Below are positions 6,122 through 46,606 of a stretch of DNA of 48,775 nucleotides, piece by piece; position 1 is the stretch's first letter; every line of letters begins with the position of its first letter. Source of the DNA: a virus; IMG/VR virus record IMGVR_UViG_3300041016_000579, positions 1-48,775 of that record; one strand, written 5' to 3'. The translations under genes were made by a program, and so were the position numbers. The notes beneath the pieces were generated by a model. That model searched no databases. It was not told the origin of the DNA and saw nothing but the letters and a program-made list of their open reading frames with translations.

Positions 6122-6126
6122 AGCCG

Positions 6127-21218: not shown

Positions 21219-21222
21219 ATTT

Positions 21223-21296
21223 GGGGACTTCGTACAATGGTAGTACGCTCGGATGGCATCCGTGCAATAGGGGTTCAATTCCCCTAGTCTCCACCA
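21223..21296 (+). tRNA. tRNA-Ala(GGC)
   Basis: Acceptor GGGGACT pairs with AGTCTCC, again with G3:U70. The anticodon loop ATGGCAT gives GGC, with the A32-U38 pair characteristic of tRNA-Ala(GGC). The anticodon stem CTCGG/CCGTG has one T-T mismatch. T-arm AGGGG-TTCAATT-CCCCT is good, and CCA is encoded. It starts 4 nt after tRNA-Ala(UGC), so the pair is almost certainly co-transcribed. Confidence 0.88.
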
Positions 21297-26850: not shown

Positions 26851-26857
26851 CCCACTT

Positions 26858-26929
26858 GGCCTTATCGTTCAACGGATAGGACAGGCGTTTCCTAAACGCT
26901 TAATCTAGGTTCGACTCCTAGTAGGGCCA
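26858..26929 (+). tRNA. tRNA-Arg(CCU)
   Basis: Acceptor GGCCTTA pairs with TAGGGCC. D-arm is GTTC/GGAC. The anticodon arm GGCGT-TTCCTAA-ACGCT gives CCU, and the T-arm CTAGG-TTCGACT-CCTAG is perfect. CCA is not encoded. It reads AGG, which is used repeatedly in the late genes (for example codons 25 and 38 of the giant gene). It lies inside the operon between erf and an RHH-like gene. Confidence 0.92.
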
Positions 26930-26948
26930 AAAACTTTCCCGCACACAC

Positions 26949-27501: not shown

Positions 27502-28212
27502 TTACTTTGGTGGCTCAACTACTGGGAGCAAGCGGCATTTCACTTCCTTGTGAGTGCGTAGGCCGCAGTACATCCCGTAGACCATGCCAATGATGACACA
27601 TGAGCCGAATGCCCACCTGAACCATTCAGCCTCCACCACATCCCGTAAAACGAACGGCGTTGCCGCACATACCGACGACAACAGAAACATAACGACACCA
27701 GCCTTTAGGCCCTTGCCGATGAAAGTGTTTGCCACGATGAAGGCCGCACCAGCAAAACCAAAGACCACAGCCATCCACAAAAATTTGTCAGACACGTTGG
27801 CCCACTCCTTCTCTTTGTTCATAGCCTCAATACTGTTCCTCAAGGCTTCGTTATCCCTGTCAGCCTTGGCCACCCTCTCATGAAGTTTGGTTGTCTCAAC
27901 ATCGACAGCCTTAGCCTTAGTCTGCTCTGCCGCTAATGCTTTAGTGTCGCCTAGCGTGGCGGCGAACTTGTCCACCTGTTCAGCCGTCGGCTTCTTGATG
28001 CCAGCCAGCCTAGTCTCGGTCAGGTCCAGCAGTGGCTTGCCTCTGCCCTCTACGTTCTTCTTAGCGACGTTTAGGGCGGCGGCTCCTTCGCTGGCCTCGT
28101 GCTCCAACTTGTCCACGTAATCGTCCCTGCTCTTGTTGGCTGGCTCGGGCACAGGCAGGGGTGGCACGACTGTCGTGCACCCAACTAGCAAGAGTGTAAG
28201 CAGGTATCTCAT
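27502..28212 (-). CDS. Unimolecular-spanin-like lipoprotein with three C-terminal membrane segments
   Basis: 236 aa. The N-terminus has a lipoprotein signal with lipobox LVGC (residues 9-12, Cys at 12), followed by a Pro-rich stretch and a coiled-coil region (about 100-138). The C-terminal third has three hydrophobic segments (about 144-163, 171-189, 198-218). A unimolecular spanin has an outer-membrane lipid anchor and an inner-membrane span, which this would satisfy, although such proteins usually have a single C-terminal span. It is encoded after the holin (ATGA overlap), at the end of the late operon. It implies a Gram-negative host. Confidence 0.7.
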   Translation of the reverse strand: MRYLLTLLLVGCTTVVPPLPVPEPANKSRDDYVDKLEHEASEGAAALNVAKKNVEGRGKPLLDLTETRLAGIKKPTAEQVDKFAATLGDTKALAAEQTKAKAVDVETTKLHERVAKADRDNEALRNSIEAMNKEKEWANVSDKFLWMAVVFGFAGAAFIVANTFIGKGLKAGVVMFLLSSVCAATPFVLRDVVEAEWFRWAFGSCVIIGMVYGMYCGLRTHKEVKCRLLPVVEPPK

Positions 28213-28508
28213 TTGGACCTAAGAACCCTTCTTTTTACGAGGTCGAGCACCTCGTGGGAGAACGTTCCGATGATGCTGTAAATCATCGCCTCGTAAATCG
28301 GGGGCACTAGGCCGTGTACCGCAAAATAACCAAGGACACCCATTATTCCTCCCGCCACTACCCTCCGAATCCAGATTATCCAGTGATACGATTCGTCGCT
28401 TATCAGCAGACGGCAGAACGCACCAAGGGCACCAAGGACCGCTACTATCCACCCTCCGTCTTTTAGTTCTTCCATCGTCTTGGTGATGACTGGGTCGGGA
28501 GGGCTCAT
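28209..28508 (-). CDS. Holin (LydA-like)
   Basis: 99 aa with three hydrophobic segments (about residues 19-35, 48-66 and 71-82), a short polar N-terminus and a basic C-terminal tail (VKRRVLRSK). This matches small phage holins of the LydA/holin-3 type. The start overlaps the giant gene stop (ATGA) and the stop overlaps the spanin-like gene start. It would open the inner membrane for the endolysin encoded at 19854. Confidence 0.75.
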   Translation of the reverse strand: MSPPDPVITKTMEELKDGGWIVAVLGALGAFCRLLISDESYHWIIWIRRVVAGGIMGVLGYFAVHGLVPPIYEAMIYSIIGTFSHEVLDLVKRRVLRSK

Positions 28509-31500
28509 CGTTCATCATCCTGTTGGGGTTGTTTAGCACCAGCGTACCAGTTGTACATTCCTACGGCGGACTTAGCCAACGTCTCTGGCTTGTCTACGCC
28601 CTTAACCGACATGAAGGGGATACCGTTGACGATGGCCTTCTTGGCTTCCGCTTTATGGTTAGCCGTCGGGAACTTAGGCCTAATGACAAGCAGAGGGCCA
28701 GTGAAACTAGTCATCCTGTGCATAGCCGCCGCAACGGCTTCTGGGCTACTGTCGAGCCGTAGTCCAATTGAATGCAGGGCTGTTGCGTGGTCCAGAGCCT
28801 GAGCACCAGTCACATTAGCATTAGGTCCGAACAATCCGTGGACGGCCTCAGACCTCGTAAGTCCGCCAAGAGTGCCTTCACCCATGGTGTCTGCCGTAGG
28901 CGTATGGGTTCCGAAGGAGGCCCCCATCTTGTTGGTAAGTTCTCCGATTCCTCCCACGCCAGCGGCAGTAGCCATGTCCCTTGACACAGGTCGCACGGCA
29001 TCATCTGCAATGTCTTGATGCATTATCTTGAAGGAGTCAGAGCGTCCTGCACCAGTCAGCATAAAGCCCTCCATAGCATAGGCACCCATCCTACCAAACG
29101 TCTTTAGGAAGTTGCTGACGATAGGCACGGCACCAAGGTACTTGGCACTCTGGGCCGCACGTTCCTGTGCTTCGTCAAACGATTTGATTCCTTGTGCGAT
29201 TGGCTTCCCAGTCTTCTTGTCCGTGACGACGTACTCTCCGTTGACCATGGAGATTTCAGGGATGTCAAAGGCGTCATGAGACACCTGATTGATTAGGCCC
29301 TCATGCATGCCAGCATAGTAAATCCTGTTGTGCCATAGCGGGGCACCATAGTTGGTGGCGTATCCGTGGGTACGGCCAACAGGAATGGACATCAGGAATC
29401 CCTGAGGCTTGTCATGGTGTGTGGCAATCCGCCTAATCACATCCTTGCCGTCAGTCACAGCCCCACTGATGTCGGCTTCCAATACTTCACGAGTAATGGA
29501 CTTGCTCCTCACTTTAGTCACAAGGTCTTTTAGGCTAGTGTCAGACCTTAACTTGGGGCCTTGCAGGAAGACTGTTTGAATGGTGGTCTTAACCTCAGCA
29601 ATCATAGATTCCTTGGTTTTTTGATTGGAAGCAAACGGCAACTGCTGGATTATTTCTTCAGCGGCTATTTCAAGGTGCCTGCAAATCTTTGCACTTTTTC
29701 CATTCCAGAAAAGTTCTGCATCGTTGTACATTACAGCGTCAGGAAACAGCCCAGCGTGCATTGCATCAATGAGTCCTCCGTGAGCCTTCTCTTTCTTGGC
29801 CACGTCCATGATGTAGGCAGAAGCCATGTAGGTTGACCTTCTTGAGCCAGCAATGTTGATGGGTGCAATGATGCCATTTCCTAGGTTGAACATGCCGACA
29901 GTGTTACCGACTGAGTCGTATCGGGTGCGGTGGTGACGTGCGTCCATGACTGTTATTGCGTCCTTGCGGGACTGTAATGCCCTCATGGCATACCAACTGG
30001 TCATAGTACCACGATAGGCACCATCCTCGCCCAGAGGGATAAGGTCTGGGTAGGTGTAAGTGTCGGCGTCTGCTACCTTGCCAATCTTGGCCTCAATCTC
30101 AAAGACCTTAGCCCTATAGCCATCCAGAAGTACGTTTGGCTTGTTGGCGAGATAGGTTGCGGTGACCTGAGGAGCGACACCTTCAAAAATCCTACCAAGC
30201 ACGGTCTGGGCCTTAAATTCATGGACTCCCCTGTTCCTACCTACGGGGTTTCCGTCCGCACCATCGAAGTCGATGTCCATGGACTGAACGAATAGCATGC
30301 ACCTGTCTCCGATGTTGGACAGTCGGTTATGAGTTACGGACTCTGGGTCGCTGATACTGTCTCTCATGGTCTGAATTGTCGTTTCTTGGTATACCTTGCC
30401 TTCGCCGTTTTCAAGGTTCCAAGCAAGAGCGTCTAAATACTGTTCAGGTGTAACGCCTAGAATTTTGCTCCTTAGCCTTATGTCGAAAGCCAACGCCCGA
30501 ACGGGGGAAAGTTCGAGGAATTTCTTTTCAGAATAATTAGTCCTTCTTGCCACCTCGGTAGCATTGGCAACAGCAGAATCTTTATTGGTTAATCCCTTAT
30601 TAACAAGCGACGGGACATGGGCGTCTGGGTTTTCTGCAATGTTCCAGAGCCTACTATTGTAAAGTGAGTAAGGCCTTTTAGCCGTCATGTCTTCGCCTCG
30701 ATTCAGGTCTGAAAGGTTAGCCACTTTGTTTCTTTCAGAATGGACGCCGCTCCATTTAGTTCTGAAGTCCGAGATGATTCCGTCACCCTTCTCGTAGTAA
30801 AGTTGCTCAAGTGAAGTCATGATGCGGAGGGCCTGACGTTTGAAACGTGGGTCCACATCGCTACGCCCCAGCCTACGCTTGTAGTCTAGAACTGTTTCCA
30901 TGGCGATTCTGTCAAAGTCTACCCCATGTGGGGTTCCAAGCAGGTCGCCGTCAATTTCGTACCATTGTCCAAGTTCATCGAGCCTAGACATAAACTCCGT
31001 GTTAAACTGAAGCCCGAAGGAGGCAATAAGTCGGCCAGCGTTGTCGGGGGACGGGTTGTCATTGTACCTGATGTAATCCGTCTGGCTCATGGGCATTAGT
31101 CCGTTTTGCTTATCCTTGGGCCCAAAGCCATAAGGCACAAGCCAGCCAGAATACTGCATGTTTGAACCACCCTCTGAGTGGCTTAACGCAATTAAATCTC
31201 TAAGCGACGAATGAAGGATTCCATTGTACCCAACGGTGAACTTAACCTCAGGGACGTAATTTTCTTTGATTCCGTATTTCTCAGCAGTTTCCTTTGTGAT
31301 GGGGTGCTTAACGCTATGGTCTAATGCGACTGCGTCCCTTTCGCTTTCTGAAAGTTGTGAGAAAAGGATGTACTTAAGGAGAGGGGAAGCCTTTTCCATT
31401 TCACGAGCGGCCAGAAGTGCGTAAACGTTATGCGTGTGTTTCTGCTTAACACTGCTTTGCACTGCTTCCATTGGTGCGGAGAGGTGTCCCTGCTTTAACT

Positions 31501-34500
31501 CCTCCTGTTCGATTTTCTGCCTAAGGGTGGTGAGTTCGGTAAGAAGTTTTCCTCCCTCAACCTGTTCAAACGATGAACCTAGGTACGAATCAATCATAGG
31601 TCCGAAGGTACTCGATTGGTACCTGTCTGATTGGAGTTCCTCAATGCCAAGGACTGCCATGGTGTCACGCTTCATCATCAGTGAGTTAGACAGTTCACTC
31701 AGGGGGGCATTAGCCCTATGGTATGCGGTGACAATGACGTCGCTATGGCGAGCATGACCAAGTTGCATGGTCGAGGACGGGGTGCTCTTGTGCCCCGTCC
31801 CGCTCATTCGACTTTCGGCAACACGCTTCACTCTTATGATACGGGACAGAGAGTCCATCTGCATCTGAATCCTAGACTGCTCCTCTGCGGTGTCTGCGGC
31901 CTTGAAAAGTTCCTTCAGGCTTGAGAGATAGGTGTCCGCTTTACTAAGTCCCATGCCAGTGTGCAGGGTATCCCACCTGTAACTGCCAATACCGCTGGTG
32001 TAGTTTCCGTAGTCAGGATGACCATCTTGAATCTGCATGTTGAAGGCAGTCTTTGCAGACTCACCGACCGTGTCCTTGGAAGAAGTTCCAGTCCTCTTGG
32101 AGGTAACCGAAGTCTCTTGGCCCCAGTCCATGATTAGGTCTACTGGCACGCTGTTGGAGCGGAAATCTGGAATCTCAAAGTCGAACCCAGCGACCCTAGA
32201 GGCGGCTTCTAGTTTGGCCTTTGCAAAGGCATCATTAAACACAGACCTGTAAGTCTCAAGAACAGCAGGGGTGATGGCGACGTGAGGGAAGCCGCTCAGT
32301 TCAAGCGGGACATTTCTTCCTGACATTCCTACGTTAGCAGGAGGGTATCCAGTCGTTGCGGCATCAATGACACTTGTCTTTTCAACGTTACCAATGATGG
32401 CAACGGCGGTGTCTTTTTCGTAGAATTGTTCGAGGGCAGACTGAAGTGCGTCGTCATGCATCTTCCTGATGGTAGCAAGGTAGGCTACCATAACTCCCTT
32501 TTCTTCTTCTGGCGTAGTCTCGATGGCGTCCTCAATCTCCTTAACCTGACGCATACGTTCCTCGTGGAACCTGCGAGCCGTAGACCTAATGGCCGCTTCG
32601 GGGCTATTAACGCTGGCAACATAGGGCGACTTGGTCAGTTGGTCAGACCTACGGCCAGTGACTGGGTACATAGCCCAAAGGAACTTGGCTACCTCGGTCT
32701 TGGTAAGTTTGTTATCCCTGTTGTCGTGCAAGAAGTCAGCAAGTCCAAGGACTCGCATTTCATTCTTAGACACGGAGTTCTCCATGAACATTTCATACCA
32801 TTCTCCACCCTTGGCCACCTCGACAGCCTTCTTTACCTTCCTCGTAGCACCGCTTGCATTCCTTTCAAGCATGGGAACAAGGCCAGTCCTAAGGACATTC
32901 AAAGCCCTAGGTGCGAACTGGTAGGGAGAGCCTCCGATACCAAATTGTAGGCCACGCCTGATGTCGTGCTCATACATGCCGACGCCGCCAGTAGATAGGT
33001 TGATTCTTTCAACCTTAGGTGCGTTGCCCGTGATAGTCTCAACCCTAAGGAGCATTTCCTGTGCGGCCTTGGCCTCTGGCAGGGTGGTAAAAGGAGTGTC
33101 AATGTTTCCTACATGGTAGAATCCGTCATGAGTATAGACAGCCATCGTAGTCTCAGCCTCGGCGGCGACGTAAGCGTCGCTTACCTGCTGGCCTTTTGTG
33201 ATGTTAGCCTTGCCGCTCGTCTTGGCATGGGAGTACTTCTGGTCGAGGGTCTTCATGGCATAGCCTCCCTCCTTGAATAGCATGGAAGGCACCTCAGCCT
33301 CAACGCCACCAGACATCACAGAGTCCCTGTAGGCTAAGGCTTCAGACTCAATCCTGAAGGCCATGACCTTTCTGGTCTTGACGGGCATTCCAGACGTATC
33401 GACACCAGTGACAACGTCATGGCCTACCATGAAGCCAGACTTGTCGCTTTTCCTGATTACAGTGACGTTGTTCTTCTTTACGTCGTCCCAAGCAAAGCGT
33501 TGCAGGTGCTTAGAGTCAGGCATGAGCAGGTCAATGACCGCAGACCTATCTCCGTTCATAGCAAAGGCACGCTCAACGTCAGGCATGAAGTAACCGCTTT
33601 CGGCACCCAGCATCCTTTCGTGTGCACCAGTAAGGTCACGAATTAGGTCTGGGTTAATGAATGAAGCCCGTGTTGCATGCTGTTCAATTTCCTTAGCAAA
33701 GTTGCTAGGACCACGAGCATCAACAGAGCCCTCAAGAGAGTAGCCAACAAGGCTAGGCTTTCCACTTGAAATGCCATAGGACTCACCACGCATTTCTCGG
33801 TGACTAGCAAGTGCACGCAAGAATGTGTTTCTGGCCGTTCCAGTTATTCCACCAAATTCGTCAATGTGGCCGAAGTACGGACTATCGCCCGTTGGTCCGC
33901 CAGCCCAGTATCTGTAATTCCCATTCCTTGCGTAAGCACCAACCCTGTCATTTGTCCTTAAAGACTCTGAGTGATAGGCAACTAGCGTGAAGTAAGCAGA
34001 CTGAAGGAGGTCCAGCCCAGCGTGCTTTGGCAGGATAATGGTGTGGTACCCGTGTTCTGGTGAGGAAGTCCTCATCAGGTCATTTAGGTCCAGCAACTGT
34101 TTGACGTGTTCTTCGTTGCCAGCAACAAACTCAGAGAAGTCCAAGGCACGGCCATTTTCCCTTACATTCTTAATGGCATTACTTCCGTAGCCAAACTGGG
34201 TTATCTTGCGTGTAAATTCAGCGGATTCAATTTCGCTGGTAAGCCTTCCTAGCAGAGCACGCTTGGCAACAGACTTTGCGGCGAGTTCGTACTGCTTAAG
34301 TGATGCTGGGTGCAGTAAGTCAGAGGTATGGGCGATACGCCTGTCTAGCGTACGCATGGCTTTTCCATTGTCGCCAATAGCGTCTTGCATTCCAAGCATT
34401 CGACCAAGGGCCATTGGAATGAGAGTTTTAGTGTTGGAGTCCCAGCCGAGCGAACGCCTGTGGGAGAATCCAAGAGGTGCGATGTACCTATCCGCAGGAA

Positions 34501-37500
34501 CAGCATCAAGGTATGAGCCCAAGTTAATGTCTGGTGCGAGGTTAACCATGATTCTTCCGTCCTCTAGCCTACTCCATGCAAATCCGACCCTAGGCTTATC
34601 CCTTTCAGCACTCATGGCAGAAACAAAAGGTTGTCCGCTCCAAGCAATACTATGAGTGGAACTGTTGTTAAAGTGTCCAGCCCTAGTGTCGCTAGAAGCA
34701 AGTCCAATGAAACCTAATGACGGCTTTCTGGCAGACGAGAACCTTGCTGGCTGTACCGCTAGTTTGCTCGTTCCCAACTGACTGGCCAGATTCGCCAACC
34801 TGTTGACGATAATCTCACGCCTTACCCTAGAGGAGAATTCAGACTTTCTGACCCTAAGTGCCGCTTTTGTAGAATCGCCAGTGTCGGTGCCGAGCACAAT
34901 TTGCCCACCCTCTCCAGAGTTTATGTCATACCAAACATCCTTGGTTCCATAGGCACCCTCTGTATCAAGACCTTCGATGCTCTGCTTTTGCTCGGTAGCA
35001 ATAGTCTGGATTGCGTCATACACGCTCATTTCTTCCCCTAGCGGAGTCCTGTAAGCCGAACTTTGGACTCGAGCCTGAGGGTTCAGGTCCTTGAATGACT
35101 TGCGGTTTTTTTTCATTGTGAAACTACCACCAATAGTGGGCACTTCATTTGAGTGGGCAATGTCTGCGGAGTTGATGTCCATGCCAAGGTTGACGCTACG
35201 CCTGACCGACATGCTAGGCCTGTCGTATTGCAACCAAGCGTCACCAGCGACGGCGTCATGTGCTTTAACGCCATACTTACGCCAACCATGTTCCCTAGGT
35301 TTCCTAGTCTTAATTCCCTTAAGTGAAGCGACGCCCATGAAATAGCCCCTCCAAAAGGTAACGCTACCCGCTTGTTGGCGGATGTTTTTGCTCATGTAGG
35401 AAATCGTCGAGGTACCATGTCCAGTCGGCACGTCATTTCCGTAAACTCCACTGTCTCCATACTGCTGGTCGAAGCCAAACGTAGCACCCATGTCATGAGC
35501 CTCCATGATTTCAGGAGCCCTTTCTTGGCTCCTTTTTGACAGTGCATGTGTCTGGGCCATATTCAGCCTCAGTAAGGTTCCGTCGATAGCCTGAGCCGAA
35601 GAAGCCTCGTAAACAATCCTTTCAAGGTTGGTCTTATCGACCTGCGTGTACCATTCTTCAATCATGGTCTTCATTTTGACCATATGCTCTGGGTTACGCA
35701 TGTCGGCAGTCTCTGCGAAAGCCACAATCTCGTGGTAGTTGCCTACTTCTAGTACCTTAGTGTCATGCACAATCCTGCCTCCCTTGACGTCGGGGAATCC
35801 TAGGTTGTTGTGGGCTAAGATAAACGGAGCGACCATCATGCCTAGCACCGCAGTGTTAATGCCTCTGGTGCTGGTATTTAGTAATGGGTTTTGGCTTATG
35901 TTTTGGTCGCCGAACAAGCCGCCAGTTTGATAGTCGGCCTGAATTTGCGGTCCCCTGTTAGCCAATGCCCAATCTACGAAGTTAGCATTCGCATCTGGCA
36001 CGTGCTTGCTAAGGTTAGCAAAAGTGTTCTGGCTAGCAAACAACAGTCCGCTAATAACAGTCTGGGTTGATGTTTCGGCAGGAAGTGGAGTGGTTACGTC
36101 ATCAGGCAATGCACCACGTTCAATGAACGATGCCACATGGTCAGCATAGGTACTTGGCTTGCTTACGATGTCACCGTCACCGTCAAAAATGGTTCCGCCG
36201 ATAAGGCCAGTAACGACGGCCTCAAGATTGTGTGCATTTGTGTTCATCCCCTTCATTAGCCACTTGGGGATTTGCGTCTCCATGCCAAAGGCTGGGAGAG
36301 TGGCACTGCTGACGGCCTCTGGGTCTGCAAGGGAGGTATCTACGTCAACGAAAGAGTCTTCGCCTACCTTGATGATTGCGGCACCTGCTTCACGCTTAGA
36401 GCCACGGAGTGCAACATGGTGAGGAAGCACGGCCTCCATGCCGACGTAAACTTCGGTGCGTTGGACAGTAATGGGTGCGAGGGTTCCAGCAACCTTGCTG
36501 GCGACACCTAACTGAATTTGGAACACCTTACCCATGTCCTTGGCTTGTGCATTAAAGACAGTCTTTTTGGCCTCAAGCATGCTGGTGAGCAGGTCAAAAG
36601 TAGCACCAGCGGTCATTCCCTGTGCCAACTTTTCACTGAGGAACTTTTGGACAAAACCGCCAGCCCTGTACGGAGTAAGGTCTTGTTTTCCATTTTCATG
36701 AAAACGACGCAACTCACCGACTTCATCAATTTGCAGGTCAATTTCGGACATACGATGCTCTATTGCGTCGGCGTGGTCCCTGAGCCTCATAGTGACGACA
36801 TTAAATTCTTCACCGCTCCAGTTAAACTGAGCCTTTGCCATCCTGCTTTGCGTTGTTTCTACGCCATCGCCAACGGCAACATCCTGCATTAGCCTATCCC
36901 TTGAAGTCAGGGATTCTTGCGAGTTTATGACTGCCCTACTAAGCGTCTGGTCGAAGGCTCCTCCAATCGAAATAGCAAGACCGCTTTCGGCACGCTCGAA
37001 CGGAATAGCAGAATCGCCAGATATGAAGGCAGACTCTCCGAATAAAAACCCTCCATGGAGAGTTCCAAGCGTGTGCATTTGTTCAACGGAAAGCGGCGTG
37101 TGGGAGTGGCGGCTGGCCGCCATACCTCCAGCATTTGCCGCCCTAGAGATGACGGAACCTTTGCCGTGTATGCGAGCCAGTGCGGTAGGCTCGTAGTAGC
37201 CAGAAGACAGAGTATCCCTGTGACCTCCAACCATCATAGGAACTTGACCCTCGTTGGAATTCCTACCCCTGTTCCCTTCGACAATTGTCACTCGAACAAG
37301 CGACTTTTCAAGTTCACTCAACAGCATGACGGCGAGTTTAGACTTCTCCCTAGGAGAGCCAGACGCCGAGTCCCTAACCATGTCAAAGACCTTGTTGAGC
37401 ATTGGCTCAATAAGCGTGGACAACCTCTGTAGCCTTTCGTTGAGAGTGTTGGCACGCTTTTGTCCCTCCCTTGAGTTCAAGGTAACGCTATGTTCAGCCA

Positions 37501-40500
37501 AGGTGGCCATGAAGCCAGAGGAGATACGCTCCCTGATTTTCTGTAATTCAACCATGTCTTCTGGAGCAGTAATGAACGCTTCAAGTTCAGGGACAGAGAA
37601 CTTAATTTCCTGACCGCTTAACTCAAACTTTCCGTACCTGTACTCCTTAGAGGTAACCTGAAACGGGCTGTACCCGCCACGCTGTGCAAGTATTCCCTGA
37701 ATGTGAGACTTAGAGGTACTTGGGAATGCGGCCAATACCTGCCTCATGACATCGCTGGAGGGCTTCCTAGCCAACACTGAGTCTGGGATGGCGTTCACTC
37801 CGAAACCAGAGTCCGATGCGTTGAACAACATCGAGAACTTGGAGTGGTTGTAGCAGAGAATGTTAAGAAGGTCATTCTTAGTCATTACTGTCTCTGGCCC
37901 AAACCCTGCGACAATGTCAGGAAGCATGACGGCAGTCGTAGCGTCATTAGAGAAGATTACTCCCCTCCTGTTAAGGTTGCTCATCACATCCCCAACCTTG
38001 AACACTGGCGGGAACGAATCGTCCATGATAGCGTCGATGACGCTGTTGCCTATGCTAAGCGTGTCGGCGGCGGTAATCTTGATGTTGGCAATCTCAACGA
38101 TGTCCTGAAGGCTGTAGGTGCCGTTTTCCCTCTGAGCACTAGGGGTAACGTACTCCTTTGGGACGTACCCCGTGTCGGCCTGACTGTAATTTCTGGTGGA
38201 CAGGCCCTCCATCTTGTTAGAAAGCCGTTCGATTGCTTCCCTGAAATCTCCTTGGACGATGTAGTTGCCAGTTTTGAAGACCAGTTTGCCTTCTTCAACC
38301 GCCCAGCCTCGCTCAATCAGGGAAAACCTTCCGAGCGATTCAATCTCATCACCAGACCTAGCGAGGATGTACCTAACTAGGGAAAGTTTACCGAGCATCT
38401 CATAGCCTCCGCTGTCGCCTTCCTTGGAGGCAATGCCACCAATAGACTTCATGATGACCTGAACGGGGTTATGCTTGCTGTACTGCAAGTAGGAGTCGAT
38501 GGCTCCAGTCTGCCGCTTCATCAGGCTGTCAGGAGTCTCGACGTTAGACTGGGCCATAGCCCTGTCGATAATGTCCATGACAGAACCCTCGGGAAGGAGG
38601 TCCTCAGAGTACTTCCTAGGGCTCTTATCAAGTTCGTCCTGCGTGAGCATCCTGCGTGCCTCAGTCTCACGGGCCATCCTCTCAGACGGCGTGTTCATGT
38701 AGTACATGTCCGTGTAGTCCTCTAGGGCCTGACGAACGAGGAGGGCTTTTTGTGTCGGCGTCGAATGCTCGATTGCCACCACGTTCCTGACAAGACCGAG
38801 GGCATTCATAGCCTGTCGGAATTGCGAGTCAAAGTTCATCTTGATGGCGTACGCAGGAGACTTCTTTTTAAGTTCCGCCCTCAATTTCGTCATGCTATCG
38901 TAGGCATGGAGGTGCTCGGTGAGCGTCTCAGCGTGTTTGTGGGCCTCCTGTAGGTCTAGAACCATGCGACCAAACGTGTCATCAACCCTTCCTGCCGAGG
39001 CTTCATGTGCCACAAAAGCGGCAAAGTTCCTAAGAGCCGTCTTCATCAGGGGGCTGGCCTTAGCACTAAGGTGCCTGATTACAGGAGAGTCTTTTGCAAG
39101 GGCTAGCCTGTCGGCCAAAGCGTTGACGTCTGGGGCGGCGGTATCTACGGCGTCGGACCATACGGCATCACGCTTCATGGCCTTAGAGATGACGTCAGAG
39201 ATGGCAAAGTTGCTCTTGATGCCAAGGAGATTGGCGAAGTGCCCCATGAGCACCTGCTTGTTAAGGTTAAAGATGTGACCATCCTCCTTCAGCATGTTGG
39301 CCTTCTCCTGAAGGACGTGCTGGGCCTCGTGCAGGATGATAGACGCAAGGGGGTTCTCGATAGTAAACCTGCTAGTCAGAGACTTGGCGTCATTGATGAC
39401 CATGCCGTCTGGGTCATTCTTCATGTTGAGTTCGGCGGCGGCAAAGGACCTAATGCCGAGTTCAATCAAAGACTCTCCAGAGGGGAGGGTTCTGGCGTAT
39501 GCACCATGGTCGTCAATCCACCTAACCTTGACGTCACGCATCTCTGGGTAGTAGTAGTACATCGACTCATGGCCGAACACCTTGCCTAGGGTGGTTTCCT
39601 TGCCGACAGGGATGTGGCTAGGGATGTACTTAGGGGAGTCAGGGATAGCGGCCCTACGCTTAACCTCAAAGGCATAGTCAGAGTATGCCTTCTCTGGGTC
39701 TGGCATGCCAGCAAACGGAAGCAGGTGGGGCTGGTTCTGGACGAAGGAAGTGTCTAGGTAGGCCTCCGAGTCAGAGAACTCAAAGGTCATTACCTTCTTG
39801 CCGTGAATAGTGATTTCCTTGGCGAGGCCAGCACGGAGAACCTCGTCACGGACCGAGGGCCTAAGTGCGTCTACGCCACCAACAGACATCCACTTCTTGT
39901 TGGCCATGTCATGGGTAGCGGCCTGAATCTTTCTGTGTTTGGCGACCCTAGCCTCAAGGGCTTTGGCGTCGTAACCAAATTTAGCATGGAACTGAGAGGA
40001 GACTCCGTAATCGTAGTGCAACTCAATCAACGTCTTCTCGCCACCAACATCCCAAAGGGTTGATGCGGTTGTGTTGTAGTTGGCTACTGCTTCACTCCAG
40101 TACCTGTCTCCAGCAATTGCTAGTTCCTGTGTAAATAGTTGAGGGTCGCCGCCGTTCTTGACCCGCTCAGCCTCTTTGGGTCCATACTTAGCCTTGAACC
40201 TACGCTCTGTGGCAACTGGGTCTAGTGCCTTGGCCAATCCAAGCAACGAGAAGGAGTTTTCAAGAGGGCTTTGCTTCCCAGTAGCCAACGCAATGTCGTG
40301 AAGTGCAACGGCTAGTTCGGTGGTATTTTTTGTTTTAGAAAATTGCTCCCAAACCTTTACTAAATTCTGGTCGCTGTTAGCAGATGAAGCAATGATGTCG
40401 TAAGAAAGGTCACGTGCCACATCTAGAATTCCTGCCCTCTCCATGCCTCGGTCATAAACATAATCACCAATTTCATTTGGCAACGCAGAGACGGCGACCC

Positions 40501-43500
40501 CAACTGTCTTCTTAGACATGTTGCCTCCTTTTGGTAAACCAAACGCAGAGCCTAACTCAGTGCCACCACGAACAGCGGGATTGGTGCCTAACGCATCGCC
40601 GTAACCCATTTTAATAATGCTTCCATGGTTCGTTGTGGCGTCTACGCCACTCCCAGAAACACGTACTGACACCCAGTTGGTGTCATTGAGGGAAATGCCT
40701 GTAGTTACTGCTTCTGCCTTTGGGTAAACTGACGTTCCAGTAGACTTTAGAGTACCTTTTACTTTCCTAGGAGATGCAGGTCCAACATGATACTCTTTTG
40801 AAATTACTCCTATGCCAGCATACGCTGAGTCAACGTAAATTTGGTGAATTTGATGGCTGAAAACGGTTTTTGCAAATGTGTTAAACGCATCTCTCTCAGA
40901 GAGAGTCATGCCATCTACGATTTTATCTAGCCTGATAGACAAGTCCTTGAAGTCCTTGTTCAATGATAGGTGAATCAGTGGGCCGTTGGGACCAGCAACA
41001 GGAGCAACTACGCCGTTTTCGTCTGGCAGGTTAAGTTGCCTGAGAAGTTCCATTGCCTGTCTTGCACGTGGCTGGTTTACGTTGCCACCAAAAGCCTTGG
41101 CGAATAAACCAAACACTCCTGTATGCCCTCTGAGTTCTATGATTTCCCTCCAAAGCCTTGCGGTTTCAAACTCCGACTTTGATTTCTTGAGTTGCTCCCA
41201 CCTAGGCTCCTTTTTATCACTGCACCATTCAGTTGATGCTATGGTGTCTTCCATGGCCTTTTTGTACTCAGGAGGAAGTTCACCCTTGCCTGAAACGTGG
41301 TCAAAAAGAGCCTTTGTGGCTTCTGCAATTTGCAAATTCTGCCCTCTGAGTTCTAGGGCGTTAGCGTCACTTGTTTTTGTCCAGAACGACATTCCTGCAT
41401 TTTCGGGGTTAAAGGCCCTAGCAATGCGTTCAGCGTGTGATTCCAGCATCTGATGGAAAATCCGCTGGGCTCCTTCTGGTGAGTGCTTTTCAAAGTATGA
41501 CCTGTCAAAAGTAATGACGGGTAGACCATCATGTTGGTGGGCTTCAATGGACATAGGCGTTCCATGGCTTTCAAAAGAGACTTTGTTAAAGTCATCTTCC
41601 CTAAACCTTAACTTCCCAAGCGTGCCTTCTGGAAGGTTGTTAGACACTTCATACTGTTTAGTAAGTTTTTTCCAGTCTGTATAAAGCGTAGAAATTTCTT
41701 CTCCTAATTTGGAAGGTACGGCTTTAAAAACTAAGGAGACAAAGTCCCTTGGCTCAATTTTTTCTGGGCTAATTCCAATCCCGCCTTGACGCACTGGGCC
41801 AACCTGTAGGTAGCCTTTTGCCCTAGCCGACGTAGCCTGATGGTACGCCAACTGGTCTTTCTGAATCTGCTGGAGACGCTCCGTCCTGTTCATCTGCGTC
41901 CATGCTTCGTCCGTAGGCAGGGCGAGCACGTCGGCTGGATTCATTGAGGACCTAAGGTGTTTCTGAGCGGCCTTGAACGCCTTATCCCTTTCCTTGTAAC
42001 TCCCAATCATGGCTCCGAATGGGCTAAACACCTTCCAATTGCTACCCTGAGTGGGTCGTTCACGCATTACCCTGTAGCCCTGACCGCTGGCGAACATATT
42101 GGCCGAGATTTCCTCAAAGCCAGCGACAGAAAGATTACGCCTAAGGGGCTCGTAGGACCTGCCGTGGTGGTAGGGGAACGGAGCGGCGGCGACCCTTTCG
42201 ACTCCTACAAGGTTCTCTAACCTAAGGGAGTGGATAGGGAAGTTGGGGTTTTCGTGACTGCTAAAGTAGCCTTCACGGGGAGGGTTAATGTAGGACTCGT
42301 CGGCCCTCTTGCTCGCACCAAACGTTTCGTACATGATGTCCCTGACCTTTTCAGCGTTGGCACCGAACTTAGGCTTGAACAGCGAAGCGGAGTCCACCCT
42401 AGCGGAAGGCTCCCTTAGCATGTTCATCATGTACACGTGGAAGAACTCGTTGAACTCTTGGAGCCCACTGAACAATGCCTTAACGTCAGGCCTAGACCAC
42501 ATCTTCATCTCACGACGATGTACTGCGGTGTAGTCCATGACAGTGGCTACATAGCCACCACGAGGTTGCCTGAGTTGCTTGCCCGTGCCATCCGTGGTCC
42601 TGTAGTACAACTTGAGTTCAAACGGGACAAACACCCTATGGGTGACTGGAACGTCCTCACCAAAGATACGCTTAAAGAGATTACCGACTGCGGTCCTATG
42701 GCTACTACCAAGGTTCTGGCCGTAGAACATGTTGCCGCTCGTAAAGCCGCTGGACTCGTAGGCCATGTAGGTATCCCTAAATGCCTTGGCTACACGGACA
42801 GACTCGGGGTCAAGGAAGCCACTGTCAGCGAGGGAGTCAAGGACCTCATCCTTCATGGTGTAGACGTCGGCAGTCCTGTTGCCGTGCTCGTCTAAAGTAA
42901 TCTTAGGCTTAAGTTCGTCAGGAAGTTGGTCAATGATGTCGAAGGCACCCTTGGATGACTTGGTGGACATCTCATTGCGTTCCTTCTCGCCTTTTAGCGT
43001 AGCACCAGTGCCACGAATGTTGAACAGGTGTTCTTTCCTGTGCTTCTTGGCCACGGCCAACTGCATCTCTGGGGACAAGTTCTGTACGGGGGCGTCGTTG
43101 GTGTTCTTCGCCGCATCAACCATGTTACGCAACAGGTTGTCCATTTGCGGTGCCCTCCTGTAGATGCCATCGTCGTAAACCTCTGCCTGAATGCTTGGCC
43201 TGTTGTCCTTCCCTAGCGGGGCACCATACTTAGCCCTGACACCAGCCATCTCAAGTTCGGTAGTCACCCTAGAAAGACGCTCAAGGAACTTACGTTCGAA
43301 GTACATCCTAAGGGGCTTCTGGTCGGCAGGGATGTTGAGGTCCTGAAGGTTGGTGTGAATGAACATGTTTTCAGCATGGCCAGACATCATTTCTTCAAAG
43401 ATGTACCTGAGAGGCATGTTCGCCTCTACATTAGGGTCAAGGCTGGCAATTTCGCCTATTCTAAACGGACTGGGCTGGCCCCTGTCCTGCTGATTGAAAA

Positions 43501-45652
43501 ACGCAAAGTCAGCCCCATATGAGGAATCCCTTAGGGCTTTTAACCTTGCGGCAAAAAAGGCTACGCTACCTTCTGTCCCTGCGTCACTATGGTAAATTTT
43601 ATTTGCTAAGGCTCGGACACCCTCGATGCCTTGACCTTCACCAATTTGTTGCATTGCCATCTCAAGAGAGTTTCTGAGGGCCGCAGTCTCGGCCATGTAC
43701 TTGTCAGACCAAACCCCCTTGTCCACCCCAGTGCCAAAGAACTCAAGCAAGTGCGTGCCCATTTGGCCTCGCTCATGGAGCGTGTAAATCAGCATGTGGC
43801 CAAGTGCTTCGTGTCCAAAATCGGCTGGCCTATACAAGTCAGGATTCAGCCAAAGCATAGGCATCATGCCATCGTTCGTTGGAACTAACGTAAATTGACC
43901 ACGACCTCGTGGGTCGAGATAACGTGCTGGGTCCTTAACGCCCCTGTTTGAAAGAATGGTCATCATTTCGGCGGCTGGCTTCGTGCTAGCGATGATTCCT
44001 TTCTTCTGCTTAGGGTCTAAAATCGTGTGAGCCATCTGAAGGACGACCCTAACATTGGAGGAAACCCTGCTAGATTTACTTAGGTCTGCGTCCTTGGTGA
44101 CAGCCCTAGCAAACTCTGCGAATTCTGGGCTAAAGCCGTCGAGTTTGGGCAGGAAGTTATTATCAAAGTCCTTGATGAAATTCTCGTGCTGAACAAAGCC
44201 GTTCACATTGCCCCACATGTGCCTGACGGCACCACTGTAGCCACCCCAGACCATGCCCATGGTGGCACCGCTTACGGCCCCACGTTCCCTGTCGTTCATG
44301 TAGCCTAGGCCAGCAAACAGGAGGGAGTCCTTGTAGGCATGCTTCATAGCCGCCGTAGACATCTGAAGCATCGGGTCTACAATGACGTTGAGGGCTTTTG
44401 CGGCTTTGGAGGCAGAAGGACTTAGCGTCTTGCTACTAGCCATCCTTTCAAGGACAGTAAGTCCATTGACTTGGTCGGCGGTAATCATGCCATGGGCAAG
44501 GTTAAGGCTCTGCTCGCCAACTTCACCAAGCAGTTCTGCCGTTGTCCTAAGGCCTAGAGAGCCAAGGTAACCGACAGTCTGCCTGATTTCCCCAGCACCG
44601 ATGTCAGCCATGCCATTGATGGCCTGAGTAGCGGCGATGTTCCTAATGTGCTCGGCACCATAGCCACTCCTAGCGGCAACAGACTGAATGGTGCCGCCGA
44701 CTAATCCTTCGACAGCATTAGCAGGGATAGAGATGGCCTTAGAAAGACCAGTGGCCAGATGTCCTACAGCCCTTTGGGTAGCACCAGCGGCCAAGGCATC
44801 CAACTTCTTGCCAGCCTCGGTAAGGGTTCCCATGGCCTTGCCGTAGAACGACATCTTTTCAGCCGCCATAGCACCCGCCCTGCCAGCCCTTACCGCAGTC
44901 CCAATAGCAAGTGCCTGAGAAGCACCGCCAGTAAACGGAGCCATAGCAATAGAGCCGACTTCAAGTCCAAGGAAGGACATGGCATGGGCAACCTTGGGGT
45001 TGCTAAATGACCTAAGTTTCTGGGCCGTAGCCTCAGACATGTTTACGTAGGGAAGCGTCTCATACACAGACATGTCTCCCTGCATAATTTTTTGGCTATC
45101 CCAGAGAAACTTTCTGCTTTCGTTCCATTGCTGGGCTTCCTCCTCCCAGTTCTGGGAAATTTTGCCACTCTTGACCGCCCTGATAAGTGAACGAAGATGG
45201 AAAACTGGGGACGTAGGGTTCTCGGATTCGGTAACCATACCCCACATGTCTCGGAGCGACCTGACAACGCCCTCACCAACAGAGGCACCCCACACTAGGG
45301 GGTTAGGGTCTTCGGCCATGCCTTCCAGCAAGTCAGCAGGTAGTTTGGCAATCATTCCCCCCACTTCGCTGATGGTTTCACCCCAGTCGGTATGACGCTT
45401 GTTGATTCCAGTAACGATTTTCTGCCAGTGCTCCTTGGCGTCTGGGCTAGACAGGTCGATGCCCTTGTCGGCATTCATCTGGTACCACGTAGCAAGTTCC
45501 TCCGACTCGTCTACTGGCGTCTTTGCAAAGGCGTCCTCCCTTGGTGCCTTAGGTGTAAGGTTTAAGCGTCCCCCCGCCCTTTGCATAGCCGCCGCATAAG
45601 CGGCAGTCTGGTTAATGTCATTGGGGTCCCGAGCGGGAGTATCAGATTCCAT
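28505..45652 (-). CDS. Giant polyvalent virion/ejection-type protein (5,715 aa)
   Basis: A single uninterrupted 17.1-kb frame, about 0.63 MDa predicted. The N-terminal 500 residues are Ala/Gly-rich with long hydrophobic helices, as in ejection proteins. HEALGH (614-619) is a zincin motif with a downstream Glu-rich helix (IFEEMMSGHAEN). A second zincin, HEAQH (2108-2112), follows a FGHESMYYYYPEM segment and resembles the polyvalent domain I recall as LPD23. Residues 4283-4690 form a diverged phage module (GLADFLHDNRDNKLTKTEVA to EELQSDRYQS). The start directly follows the previous stop (TAAATG). Injection into the cell and action on host or phage factors is inferred. Confidence 0.85.
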   Translation of the reverse strand: MESDTPARDPNDINQTAAYAAAMQRAGGRLNLTPKAPREDAFAKTPVDESEELATWYQMNADKGIDLSSPDAKEHWQKIVTGINKRHTDWGETISEVGGMIAKLPADLLEGMAEDPNPLVWGASVGEGVVRSLRDMWGMVTESENPTSPVFHLRSLIRAVKSGKISQNWEEEAQQWNESRKFLWDSQKIMQGDMSVYETLPYVNMSEATAQKLRSFSNPKVAHAMSFLGLEVGSIAMAPFTGGASQALAIGTAVRAGRAGAMAAEKMSFYGKAMGTLTEAGKKLDALAAGATQRAVGHLATGLSKAISIPANAVEGLVGGTIQSVAARSGYGAEHIRNIAATQAINGMADIGAGEIRQTVGYLGSLGLRTTAELLGEVGEQSLNLAHGMITADQVNGLTVLERMASSKTLSPSASKAAKALNVIVDPMLQMSTAAMKHAYKDSLLFAGLGYMNDRERGAVSGATMGMVWGGYSGAVRHMWGNVNGFVQHENFIKDFDNNFLPKLDGFSPEFAEFARAVTKDADLSKSSRVSSNVRVVLQMAHTILDPKQKKGIIASTKPAAEMMTILSNRGVKDPARYLDPRGRGQFTLVPTNDGMMPMLWLNPDLYRPADFGHEALGHMLIYTLHERGQMGTHLLEFFGTGVDKGVWSDKYMAETAALRNSLEMAMQQIGEGQGIEGVRALANKIYHSDAGTEGSVAFFAARLKALRDSSYGADFAFFNQQDRGQPSPFRIGEIASLDPNVEANMPLRYIFEEMMSGHAENMFIHTNLQDLNIPADQKPLRMYFERKFLERLSRVTTELEMAGVRAKYGAPLGKDNRPSIQAEVYDDGIYRRAPQMDNLLRNMVDAAKNTNDAPVQNLSPEMQLAVAKKHRKEHLFNIRGTGATLKGEKERNEMSTKSSKGAFDIIDQLPDELKPKITLDEHGNRTADVYTMKDEVLDSLADSGFLDPESVRVAKAFRDTYMAYESSGFTSGNMFYGQNLGSSHRTAVGNLFKRIFGEDVPVTHRVFVPFELKLYYRTTDGTGKQLRQPRGGYVATVMDYTAVHRREMKMWSRPDVKALFSGLQEFNEFFHVYMMNMLREPSARVDSASLFKPKFGANAEKVRDIMYETFGASKRADESYINPPREGYFSSHENPNFPIHSLRLENLVGVERVAAAPFPYHHGRSYEPLRRNLSVAGFEEISANMFASGQGYRVMRERPTQGSNWKVFSPFGAMIGSYKERDKAFKAAQKHLRSSMNPADVLALPTDEAWTQMNRTERLQQIQKDQLAYHQATSARAKGYLQVGPVRQGGIGISPEKIEPRDFVSLVFKAVPSKLGEEISTLYTDWKKLTKQYEVSNNLPEGTLGKLRFREDDFNKVSFESHGTPMSIEAHQHDGLPVITFDRSYFEKHSPEGAQRIFHQMLESHAERIARAFNPENAGMSFWTKTSDANALELRGQNLQIAEATKALFDHVSGKGELPPEYKKAMEDTIASTEWCSDKKEPRWEQLKKSKSEFETARLWREIIELRGHTGVFGLFAKAFGGNVNQPRARQAMELLRQLNLPDENGVVAPVAGPNGPLIHLSLNKDFKDLSIRLDKIVDGMTLSERDAFNTFAKTVFSHQIHQIYVDSAYAGIGVISKEYHVGPASPRKVKGTLKSTGTSVYPKAEAVTTGISLNDTNWVSVRVSGSGVDATTNHGSIIKMGYGDALGTNPAVRGGTELGSAFGLPKGGNMSKKTVGVAVSALPNEIGDYVYDRGMERAGILDVARDLSYDIIASSANSDQNLVKVWEQFSKTKNTTELAVALHDIALATGKQSPLENSFSLLGLAKALDPVATERRFKAKYGPKEAERVKNGGDPQLFTQELAIAGDRYWSEAVANYNTTASTLWDVGGEKTLIELHYDYGVSSQFHAKFGYDAKALEARVAKHRKIQAATHDMANKKWMSVGGVDALRPSVRDEVLRAGLAKEITIHGKKVMTFEFSDSEAYLDTSFVQNQPHLLPFAGMPDPEKAYSDYAFEVKRRAAIPDSPKYIPSHIPVGKETTLGKVFGHESMYYYYPEMRDVKVRWIDDHGAYARTLPSGESLIELGIRSFAAAELNMKNDPDGMVINDAKSLTSRFTIENPLASIILHEAQHVLQEKANMLKEDGHIFNLNKQVLMGHFANLLGIKSNFAISDVISKAMKRDAVWSDAVDTAAPDVNALADRLALAKDSPVIRHLSAKASPLMKTALRNFAAFVAHEASAGRVDDTFGRMVLDLQEAHKHAETLTEHLHAYDSMTKLRAELKKKSPAYAIKMNFDSQFRQAMNALGLVRNVVAIEHSTPTQKALLVRQALEDYTDMYYMNTPSERMARETEARRMLTQDELDKSPRKYSEDLLPEGSVMDIIDRAMAQSNVETPDSLMKRQTGAIDSYLQYSKHNPVQVIMKSIGGIASKEGDSGGYEMLGKLSLVRYILARSGDEIESLGRFSLIERGWAVEEGKLVFKTGNYIVQGDFREAIERLSNKMEGLSTRNYSQADTGYVPKEYVTPSAQRENGTYSLQDIVEIANIKITAADTLSIGNSVIDAIMDDSFPPVFKVGDVMSNLNRRGVIFSNDATTAVMLPDIVAGFGPETVMTKNDLLNILCYNHSKFSMLFNASDSGFGVNAIPDSVLARKPSSDVMRQVLAAFPSTSKSHIQGILAQRGGYSPFQVTSKEYRYGKFELSGQEIKFSVPELEAFITAPEDMVELQKIRERISSGFMATLAEHSVTLNSREGQKRANTLNERLQRLSTLIEPMLNKVFDMVRDSASGSPREKSKLAVMLLSELEKSLVRVTIVEGNRGRNSNEGQVPMMVGGHRDTLSSGYYEPTALARIHGKGSVISRAANAGGMAASRHSHTPLSVEQMHTLGTLHGGFLFGESAFISGDSAIPFERAESGLAISIGGAFDQTLSRAVINSQESLTSRDRLMQDVAVGDGVETTQSRMAKAQFNWSGEEFNVVTMRLRDHADAIEHRMSEIDLQIDEVGELRRFHENGKQDLTPYRAGGFVQKFLSEKLAQGMTAGATFDLLTSMLEAKKTVFNAQAKDMGKVFQIQLGVASKVAGTLAPITVQRTEVYVGMEAVLPHHVALRGSKREAGAAIIKVGEDSFVDVDTSLADPEAVSSATLPAFGMETQIPKWLMKGMNTNAHNLEAVVTGLIGGTIFDGDGDIVSKPSTYADHVASFIERGALPDDVTTPLPAETSTQTVISGLLFASQNTFANLSKHVPDANANFVDWALANRGPQIQADYQTGGLFGDQNISQNPLLNTSTRGINTAVLGMMVAPFILAHNNLGFPDVKGGRIVHDTKVLEVGNYHEIVAFAETADMRNPEHMVKMKTMIEEWYTQVDKTNLERIVYEASSAQAIDGTLLRLNMAQTHALSKRSQERAPEIMEAHDMGATFGFDQQYGDSGVYGNDVPTGHGTSTISYMSKNIRQQAGSVTFWRGYFMGVASLKGIKTRKPREHGWRKYGVKAHDAVAGDAWLQYDRPSMSVRRSVNLGMDINSADIAHSNEVPTIGGSFTMKKNRKSFKDLNPQARVQSSAYRTPLGEEMSVYDAIQTIATEQKQSIEGLDTEGAYGTKDVWYDINSGEGGQIVLGTDTGDSTKAALRVRKSEFSSRVRREIIVNRLANLASQLGTSKLAVQPARFSSARKPSLGFIGLASSDTRAGHFNNSSTHSIAWSGQPFVSAMSAERDKPRVGFAWSRLEDGRIMVNLAPDINLGSYLDAVPADRYIAPLGFSHRRSLGWDSNTKTLIPMALGRMLGMQDAIGDNGKAMRTLDRRIAHTSDLLHPASLKQYELAAKSVAKRALLGRLTSEIESAEFTRKITQFGYGSNAIKNVRENGRALDFSEFVAGNEEHVKQLLDLNDLMRTSSPEHGYHTIILPKHAGLDLLQSAYFTLVAYHSESLRTNDRVGAYARNGNYRYWAGGPTGDSPYFGHIDEFGGITGTARNTFLRALASHREMRGESYGISSGKPSLVGYSLEGSVDARGPSNFAKEIEQHATRASFINPDLIRDLTGAHERMLGAESGYFMPDVERAFAMNGDRSAVIDLLMPDSKHLQRFAWDDVKKNNVTVIRKSDKSGFMVGHDVVTGVDTSGMPVKTRKVMAFRIESEALAYRDSVMSGGVEAEVPSMLFKEGGYAMKTLDQKYSHAKTSGKANITKGQQVSDAYVAAEAETTMAVYTHDGFYHVGNIDTPFTTLPEAKAAQEMLLRVETITGNAPKVERINLSTGGVGMYEHDIRRGLQFGIGGSPYQFAPRALNVLRTGLVPMLERNASGATRKVKKAVEVAKGGEWYEMFMENSVSKNEMRVLGLADFLHDNRDNKLTKTEVAKFLWAMYPVTGRRSDQLTKSPYVASVNSPEAAIRSTARRFHEERMRQVKEIEDAIETTPEEEKGVMVAYLATIRKMHDDALQSALEQFYEKDTAVAIIGNVEKTSVIDAATTGYPPANVGMSGRNVPLELSGFPHVAITPAVLETYRSVFNDAFAKAKLEAASRVAGFDFEIPDFRSNSVPVDLIMDWGQETSVTSKRTGTSSKDTVGESAKTAFNMQIQDGHPDYGNYTSGIGSYRWDTLHTGMGLSKADTYLSSLKELFKAADTAEEQSRIQMQMDSLSRIIRVKRVAESRMSGTGHKSTPSSTMQLGHARHSDVIVTAYHRANAPLSELSNSLMMKRDTMAVLGIEELQSDRYQSSTFGPMIDSYLGSSFEQVEGGKLLTELTTLRQKIEQEELKQGHLSAPMEAVQSSVKQKHTHNVYALLAAREMEKASPLLKYILFSQLSESERDAVALDHSVKHPITKETAEKYGIKENYVPEVKFTVGYNGILHSSLRDLIALSHSEGGSNMQYSGWLVPYGFGPKDKQNGLMPMSQTDYIRYNDNPSPDNAGRLIASFGLQFNTEFMSRLDELGQWYEIDGDLLGTPHGVDFDRIAMETVLDYKRRLGRSDVDPRFKRQALRIMTSLEQLYYEKGDGIISDFRTKWSGVHSERNKVANLSDLNRGEDMTAKRPYSLYNSRLWNIAENPDAHVPSLVNKGLTNKDSAVANATEVARRTNYSEKKFLELSPVRALAFDIRLRSKILGVTPEQYLDALAWNLENGEGKVYQETTIQTMRDSISDPESVTHNRLSNIGDRCMLFVQSMDIDFDGADGNPVGRNRGVHEFKAQTVLGRIFEGVAPQVTATYLANKPNVLLDGYRAKVFEIEAKIGKVADADTYTYPDLIPLGEDGAYRGTMTSWYAMRALQSRKDAITVMDARHHRTRYDSVGNTVGMFNLGNGIIAPINIAGSRRSTYMASAYIMDVAKKEKAHGGLIDAMHAGLFPDAVMYNDAELFWNGKSAKICRHLEIAAEEIIQQLPFASNQKTKESMIAEVKTTIQTVFLQGPKLRSDTSLKDLVTKVRSKSITREVLEADISGAVTDGKDVIRRIATHHDKPQGFLMSIPVGRTHGYATNYGAPLWHNRIYYAGMHEGLINQVSHDAFDIPEISMVNGEYVVTDKKTGKPIAQGIKSFDEAQERAAQSAKYLGAVPIVSNFLKTFGRMGAYAMEGFMLTGAGRSDSFKIMHQDIADDAVRPVSRDMATAAGVGGIGELTNKMGASFGTHTPTADTMGEGTLGGLTRSEAVHGLFGPNANVTGAQALDHATALHSIGLRLDSSPEAVAAAMHRMTSFTGPLLVIRPKFPTANHKAEAKKAIVNGIPFMSVKGVDKPETLAKSAVGMYNWYAGAKQPQQDDER

Positions 45653-46606
45653 TTAAAGAGAGATGCTATTGTTCTCGTAAGAGTCTGTCTTAGAGGATTC
45701 GCCACCATTGCTGTCTTGTTCAAGGAAGTCCAACCCGTTTGCTTGGGCGGAACTCTTTAACTTTTCCTTGGTCATAGCCCTGACCCTCTTGATGAGAGCC
45801 AGTTCATTCCCCTTAAAGCGTGTGACCCAATTGGTAGCCCTCTGAGGGGTCATGGACATGGCAAAACTTAAGTCTCTTTCGGACACGTTACCTCCAAGGC
45901 CCTTAGTGCCACTCATGACACGCATGAAGTCTTGGGTAATCTTGGCCTCTAGGCCTCGGGCCTCAGTGGAAGCCTCACTATAGCCAAAGCCAGTGAGGAC
46001 TGCGTTCTGGTTGTAAATTTCCTCCAGTTTGGTGAGGTTGCCTAAGAGCAACTGGCTGTCCGAAATCAGGCCCCTGAACTTGTCGGCTTCCTCGCCACCC
46101 GCCTTAAAGGGAACGTTAGTAACCCCGTATTGACGGGCGAAGGCATGCATTGGCAGGTCCTTAACGCCCTCAGGGGTGGGTACCTGACGGGAGCCCTTGG
46201 GGACAATCATCCAAGTGCTACTTTTCTTGGTCTTCTTGTCCTCGGCAAAGCCGTTGTCCATGTCGTAGGGGTCGTACATCTGGAAGATGGCACGCCCGTC
46301 CTTGGAACTGGTGAGTGCCTGAGCCGCACCATAGTCCTCGACGGCATTGGCGTAGAACTCAGCGTCCTTGGCAAACACAGAGGGCTTCTCTTTGGCCTGT
46401 GCAGTCATGTAGTCGCCATAAGGGTCGCTAGGACCACCTTTATTACGCTTCTTGCTTTGGAACAGGGGGGCGGCTTCGGCAAGGGGGTTAAACCCTGCCT
46501 GTTTAGCGGCCATGGCTCGCTCGGGGTAGTAGTGCCCTTCCTTCCGTGATTGGCCTAGGACGTCCTCTGGCTTAACACCAAAGTCGTCATCGTATCCAGA
46601 ATCCAT
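45653..46606 (-). CDS. Internal virion-like protein (317 aa) before the giant gene
   Basis: Starts by TAATG overlap at 46606 and ends directly before the giant start. An acidic N-terminus, then a long helical region (LISDSQLLLGNLTKLEEIY, then RGLEAKITQDFMRVMSGTKG) and a Lys-rich segment near residues 275-285. The GNVSERDLSFAMSM motif resembles short helical segments in other phage structural proteins. No firm family; position next to the giant gene suggests an ejection or core protein. Confidence 0.65.
   Translation of the reverse strand: MDSGYDDDFGVKPEDVLGQSRKEGHYYPERAMAAKQAGFNPLAEAAPLFQSKKRNKGGPSDPYGDYMTAQAKEKPSVFAKDAEFYANAVEDYGAAQALTSSKDGRAIFQMYDPYDMDNGFAEDKKTKKSSTWMIVPKGSRQVPTPEGVKDLPMHAFARQYGVTNVPFKAGGEEADKFRGLISDSQLLLGNLTKLEEIYNQNAVLTGFGYSEASTEARGLEAKITQDFMRVMSGTKGLGGNVSERDLSFAMSMTPQRATNWVTRFKGNELALIKRVRAMTKEKLKSSAQANGLDFLEQDSNGGESSKTDSYENNSISL

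Follow-up and report, generated by a model that had tools for sequence, protein, structure and literature searches.

A 5,715-residue single-frame protein with polyvalent-type domains in a 48.8-kb viral genome: a probable ejection protein

What kind of protein could occupy more than a third of a small viral genome, and is such a protein real? This question is raised by IMG/VR record IMGVR_UViG_3300041016_000579, of which positions 1 to 48,775 (the whole stretch of 48,775 nucleotides, hereafter the window) were analyzed. An open reading frame with an ATG start and without internal stops extends over positions 28505..45652 on the minus strand and encodes a predicted product of 5,715 residues (629 kDa, isoelectric point 6.7), referred to here as the giant; its internal features and the neighboring genes described below are on the same strand. 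Because the ends of the window have 19 bp in common and a gene for a 557-residue protein continues across the join, the genome is a circle of 48,756 bp, of which the giant gene makes up 35.2%. With this base composition, a frame of such length would stay open by chance with a probability of about 1e-107, and each of the other five frames over the same region contains 146-479 stops. The answer that we favor as the probable one is that the giant is a phage polyvalent-type ejection protein that is packaged in the virion, ejected and probably self-processed.

Relatives of the giant, with the frame kept, are encoded on 16 further IMG/VR contigs, two of which overlap at 100% identity. Five of these relatives are complete single frames, of 5,737 (L002), 5,749 (L007), 5,706 (G006), 5,611 (G008) and 5,676 (G009) residues, and the remaining ones are partial, their frames leaving the contig ends without a stop. 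Identity to the giant of the window is 46-50% in a near clade and 25-31% in a far clade, and spans 27-50% for the five complete frames. For the pair L003/L004, with 93% amino acid identity, the ratio of nonsynonymous to synonymous substitution rates (dN/dS) is 0.084, with values of 0.04-0.14 in each of the covered segments of 500 codons. The complete relatives and the low dN/dS indicate a real frame that is under selection throughout its length and varies little in size. The chance that it is an assembly fusion of several genes, which an earlier note on this DNA, made from the letters only, had named among the findings that would refute its observation of a single frame filling 35% of the genome, is virtually nil: nothing in favor of a fusion was found, and five other contigs contain the same single frame (5,600-5,750 codons) at identities as low as 27-30%, with purifying selection acting on it. 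The giant thus is a real protein of unusual size and, because purifying selection is detected in every tested stretch and the length is fixed across the family, the whole chain appears to matter.

Two distinct homologous domains were found in the giant, and only one of these, a zincin, has a predicted activity. This polyvalent-type zincin metallopeptidase domain (residues ~2020-2335; 38648..39595) is recovered both by hhalign, the E-values of which refer to single pairs throughout, and by a single-sequence match to a hidden Markov model (HMM). The reference set consists of 76 viral HEIQH zincin sequences that were collected with a short motif probe and then aligned, and that we take to be the published polyvalent clade. 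Compared with these phage zincins from viral contigs, the giant yields, at residues 2020-2130, E-values of 3e-16 to 5e-15 at a probability of 98-99%, and among the controls, no other forward (shifted) window reaches 2e-4 and no reversed window reaches 0.01; the giant of the window alone matches the HEIQH zincin HMM at 3.5e-11. The alignment extends upstream to a stretch that is absent from the probe (LdHPELfxAYPxLxdV versus LGKVFGHESMYYYYPEMRDVKV), so that the match exceeds the motif that was searched for. The predicted catalytic motif HEAQH (H2108-H2112; 39317..39331) conforms to HExQH, which is invariant in 11 of the 11 covering sequences, and the invariant E2324 (38681..38683), with which the GEvEAR motif of related zincins aligns weakly (E 0.005), is a candidate third zinc ligand. 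By the measure of profile similarity, the domain near residue 2108 is homologous to the phage polyvalent-type zincins. Another stretch of the giant, residues 4210-4257 (32882-33025), shows a weak match to the zincin profile at YEHDIRRGLQFGIGGSP (E 3e-4); it contains no HExxH motif and was set aside as either a chance match or a degenerate zincin copy.

The earlier note listed zincin motifs in the plural, and the claim stands for the domain at 2108. The second case is an HExxxH motif (H614, E615, H619; 43796..43813) that is invariant in all nine covering sequences and has a putative third metal ligand in the invariant pair E753-E754 (43391..43396). HExxxH zincins have been described in polyvalent proteins (PMC5512222), and the motif itself makes a second zincin at 614 possible; at the level of homology the claim was not supported, as a profile built from as many as 18 HExxxH sequences reaches a best E-value of 0.06 against the giant, no better than controls.

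The second domain is a C-terminal module, detected with a profile of 80 viral sequences that contain an EIQSD motif and, upstream of it, VKKEELxWtGLDDFL...VTKQEV. The first half matches residues 4235-4320 of the giant (VKKEEL..GLDDFL..VTKQEV; 32693..32950; hhalign E 7e-9, probability 96%) and the second half residues 4619-4690 (GHxR..IEELQSDxYQ; 31583..31798; E 6e-6, probability 85%). The halves are collinear in the giant, the best E-value elsewhere is 0.02 and that for reversed sequence is 0.1, and the first half lies outside the selection criterion and is still matched. The module is accompanied by four ART-PolyVal stretches in Dolichospermum phage Dfl-JY45 and is also present in a 4,012-residue protein of Nostoc phage Nsp-JY18 that shows a near-cut-off match to LPD22. 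Judged from these alignments, the region 4235-4690 is a genuine polyvalent-type module, as had been suspected from the letters. The VKKEEL..GLDDFL / HxR..EEIQSD combination occurs at 560 or more viral loci. In the tested phage proteins, this common module of polyvalent-type proteins was matched by neither Pfam nor NCBIfam models, and PHROGs includes it only within long, mostly unnamed families.

Around these domains, 517 positions are invariant among twelve sequences and are concentrated in blocks at residues 1-1250, 1900-2420, parts of 3600-4730, and 5200-5530. The N-terminal block (1-1250; 41903..45652) is the best conserved, with ~68% identity to G001 and 47-49% to the G006/G007 clade, and the C-terminal block (5202-5530; 29063..30049) contains the invariant motifs DARHHRxRY and HGYAxNYGxPxW. 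The middle of the protein (2420-3600; 34853..38395) evolves fast, with 37% identity to G001 and ~20% to G006/G007, and keeps its length. The description of the N-terminus as hydrophobic and Ala/Gly-rich is correct in its second part (Ala/Gly, 24%); the N-terminus is only mildly hydrophobic, and the giant has no transmembrane-like segment, the Kyte-Doolittle hydropathy not exceeding 1.4 in any 19-residue window. Two small repeats with the pattern 'YxVGxx...F.t..eAkA' are present at residues 4060-4125 and 4160-4215 (33008-33475) and match each other at the profile level (E 5e-5); similar-looking stretches at 1180-1245 and 5460-5510 show no profile match to this pair.

There was no match in 50,697 phage records either to the two halves of the giant (tblastn, E 0.01) or to slices of distant relatives (tblastn, E 0.05). 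Among 84,980 genomes of bacteria and archaea, none contained a relative recognizable by a profile of the most conserved block, and thus neither a host nor a prophage form was found. Neither slices of the whole giant nor family alignments had a significant match in Pfam (at 0.001), PHROGs, NCBIfam or PDB sequences; a Terminase_4 match below the cut-off (E 0.005) lies in helical sequence and was judged to be due to chance. As far as searched, the family is undescribed. Among the checks that the earlier note had suggested, library searches of slices were negative, profile-profile comparison produced the two domains, and structure prediction was too weak to contribute.

The genomic context is as the earlier note had described it, with two genes for small late proteins before the giant gene and genes for holin-like and spanin-like proteins after it. 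The giant is encoded at the end of the late gene cluster among virion genes, with the small late proteins on one side and lysis genes on the other. Its start directly follows the stop of the gene for a 317-residue protein (45653..46606), which is adjacent in relatives and co-diverges with the giant, and further upstream is the gene for a co-diverging 277-residue protein (46606..47439); both are likely partner internal proteins. On the other side are two conserved neighbors, a 99-residue holin-like protein (28209..28508) with weak matches to three Pfam holin families, the gene of which overlaps the stop of the giant by 4 bp, and a 236-residue spanin-like lipoprotein with a lipobox (27502..28212). 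This direct coupling to the holin gene, and the fact that no packaging signal is known, would suit a late non-virion protein that acts in the infected cell on host defense or lysis timing. We consider such a role improbable, given that the giant is on the same strand as the small late upstream proteins, abuts them and co-diverges with them, and that the closest relatives of its domains are found in proteins thought to be packaged (PMC5512222). As a separate observation, the window and G008 (L038:1125-1412) share 85% identity in the holin-like gene, compared with 27% for the adjacent giant and 40% for the spanin-like gene, a pattern suggesting that only the holin gene was exchanged.

The designation of the virus as a podovirus is plausible from its gene content: the portal is of the SU10 type at a score below the cut-off (28.3 bits against 30), TerL is LUZ24-like (25%), and no tail-tube, sheath or tape-measure match was found among the genes scanned. 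The last result also bears on the suggestion that the giant is itself a tail protein, serving as a tape measure or as a giant surface adhesin of the particle. Its late position and large size would fit; nevertheless, this is very improbable, considering that the tail matches are missing from the scanned genes and that better tail candidates are present among other late-region genes (2148-7151). A polyvalent-type zincin and module would be unexpected in a tape measure. The other genes of the genome include those for a capsid protein like that of 50-kb Vibrio phages, an SLT-type lysin, RusA, ERF and a DnaC-like loader. Three transfer RNA (tRNA) genes, tandem tRNA-Ala TGC and GGC and a tRNA-Arg CCT, are located in the plus-strand region (21144-21296, 26857-26930).

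Comparison of the window with G006 gives identities of 90% for TerL, 83% for the portal, 50% for the 317-residue protein, 37% for the 277-residue protein and ~30% for the giant (with stretches near 20%); the giant evolves much faster than the head genes. Swapping of the giant as a cassette between phages is not the preferred explanation. Fast change in place is preferred because the branching order is identical for the giant, the small upstream proteins and TerL. The fast evolution looks like what is expected of host-facing proteins, although it is not proof of such a role.

If the giant is indeed a polyvalent-type ejection protein, it would be made late, together with the particle proteins, and a few copies would be packaged inside the head beside the 317- and 277-residue proteins and, as infection begins, delivered via the portal and short tail. 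Its first 1,250 residues probably would anchor it in the ejection assembly. The zincin near 2108, perhaps together with the HExxxH motif at 614, probably would cut the chain during packaging or after entry, yielding the working pieces, and the C-terminal half, with the polyvalent module and the conserved C-terminal block, and the fast-evolving middle probably would act on host functions or shield the phage from them. In favor of this interpretation are the homology of the zincin and the module to domains of polyvalent-type proteins, the N4-like gene order, the co-divergence with the two upstream neighbors, and the selection and fixed length of the chain. The sequences show a single selected frame, the two homologous domains, a conserved context and evolution faster than that of the head genes; packaging, ejection, self-cleavage and effector roles are inferred, and a sequence cannot show packaging or ejection. 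The interpretation of the earlier note, a packaged and ejected multifunctional protein as opposed to a normal tail protein, is thus partly supported. Taking cut and uncut versions together, packaging and ejection are very likely, and cutting by the zincin is reasonably likely; self-processing of injected polyvalent proteins by such zincins has been proposed by Iyer et al. (PMC5512222). That the giant is a self-processing virion polyprotein, with its own metallopeptidase(s) releasing an ejection-conduit part and several injected effectors, is unlikely in our estimation; such a polyprotein would supply proteins that other podoviruses encode as separate genes and would represent a new class.

A different outcome, rather unlikely in our view, is that the giant is packaged and ejected and never cut, remaining one chain of loosely joined domains like the vRNAP of phage N4, with a zincin that targets host or virion proteins or has lost its activity. 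The N4 protein has an HExxH domain of its own and enters the particle without being processed (PMC5512222, PMC12633501), so that a zincin need not cut the giant chain, and the conservation of HExQH and of the candidate third ligand fits an active enzyme with any substrate. Conversely, an uncut 629-kDa chain must traverse a narrow tail, and the separate conserved blocks linked by fast-evolving stretches resemble separable units; neither point is decisive.

Besides the uncleaved state of the N4 protein (PMC5512222), several results weigh against a self-processed ejection protein. No homology to a proven ejection protein was found, with no match to N4 vRNAP or to those encoded at this position in Phage C75C1, and the lack of a transmembrane-like segment contrasts with the likely membrane-spanning N-terminal domain of the N4 protein (PMC12633501). 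The curated Pfam models MPTase-PolyVal and LPD38 (PF18818 and PF18857) do not match the giant; in one of these searches the controls gave no match either. The AlphaFold2 models are of low confidence, with a predicted local distance difference test (pLDDT) score of 44 for residues 1900-2420 and 56 for residues 560-1245, and Foldseek comparison of the predicted structures with PDB gave nothing below E 0.001.

Should the ejection-protein interpretation be right, the giant would represent a family of injected phage proteins that is undescribed, very large in its members and conserved in length over deep divergence. It would also provide a tractable case for studying the packing of a 629-kDa protein and its passage through a short tail, as well as whether polyvalent zincins cut their own chain.

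Among known systems, the phage polyvalent proteins (Iyer et al., 2017, PMC5512222) resemble the giant in being large, late-encoded proteins with more than one domain, in the HEIQH-type zincin, and in the module, which other phages combine with ART-PolyVal and LPD22; the giant differs in its size, 5,715 residues in a 48.8-kb genome, and in that most of its length has no named domain. The gp50 vRNAP of N4 (3,500 residues) is likewise a giant late protein of a short-tailed phage with an HExxH domain, and it is encoded directly downstream of the ejection proteins gp51 and gp52, an order similar to that of the giant and its neighbors (PMC12633501). It takes up 15% of its genome (10.5 kb of 70 kb), as opposed to 35%, and no 450-residue profile window of the giant matches gp50 above shuffled decoys; as far as profiles can tell, the giant is not an N4-type polymerase, and no polymerase was found in it. 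The closest sequenced head module is that of Phage C75C1 (OQ984151), with 27% identity for the portal and 32% for TerL; in the place of the giant, this phage encodes proteins of 2,769, 375 and 1,343 residues that have no detectable homology to it. The 2,769-residue protein (L017, first coding sequence) contains a near-exact tandem duplication of ~75 residues at ~168-325, which is either recent or an assembly error. The 4,012-residue 'lysin' of Nostoc phage Nsp-JY18 shares the VKKEEL/EIQSD module and an HExxH motif with the giant and accounts for 25% (12.0 kb) of a 47.6-kb genome; it differs in that similarity is detected only across the module. The largest gene of Ochrobactrum podovirus POI1126, a relative of Bcep22, takes up 14.5 kb of 60 kb (24%) and is annotated as a methylase, the likeness being drawn from the published description only (PMC5492332). 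Although we claim no record, the 35% share of the giant exceeds the precedents of POI1126, Nsp-JY18 and N4.
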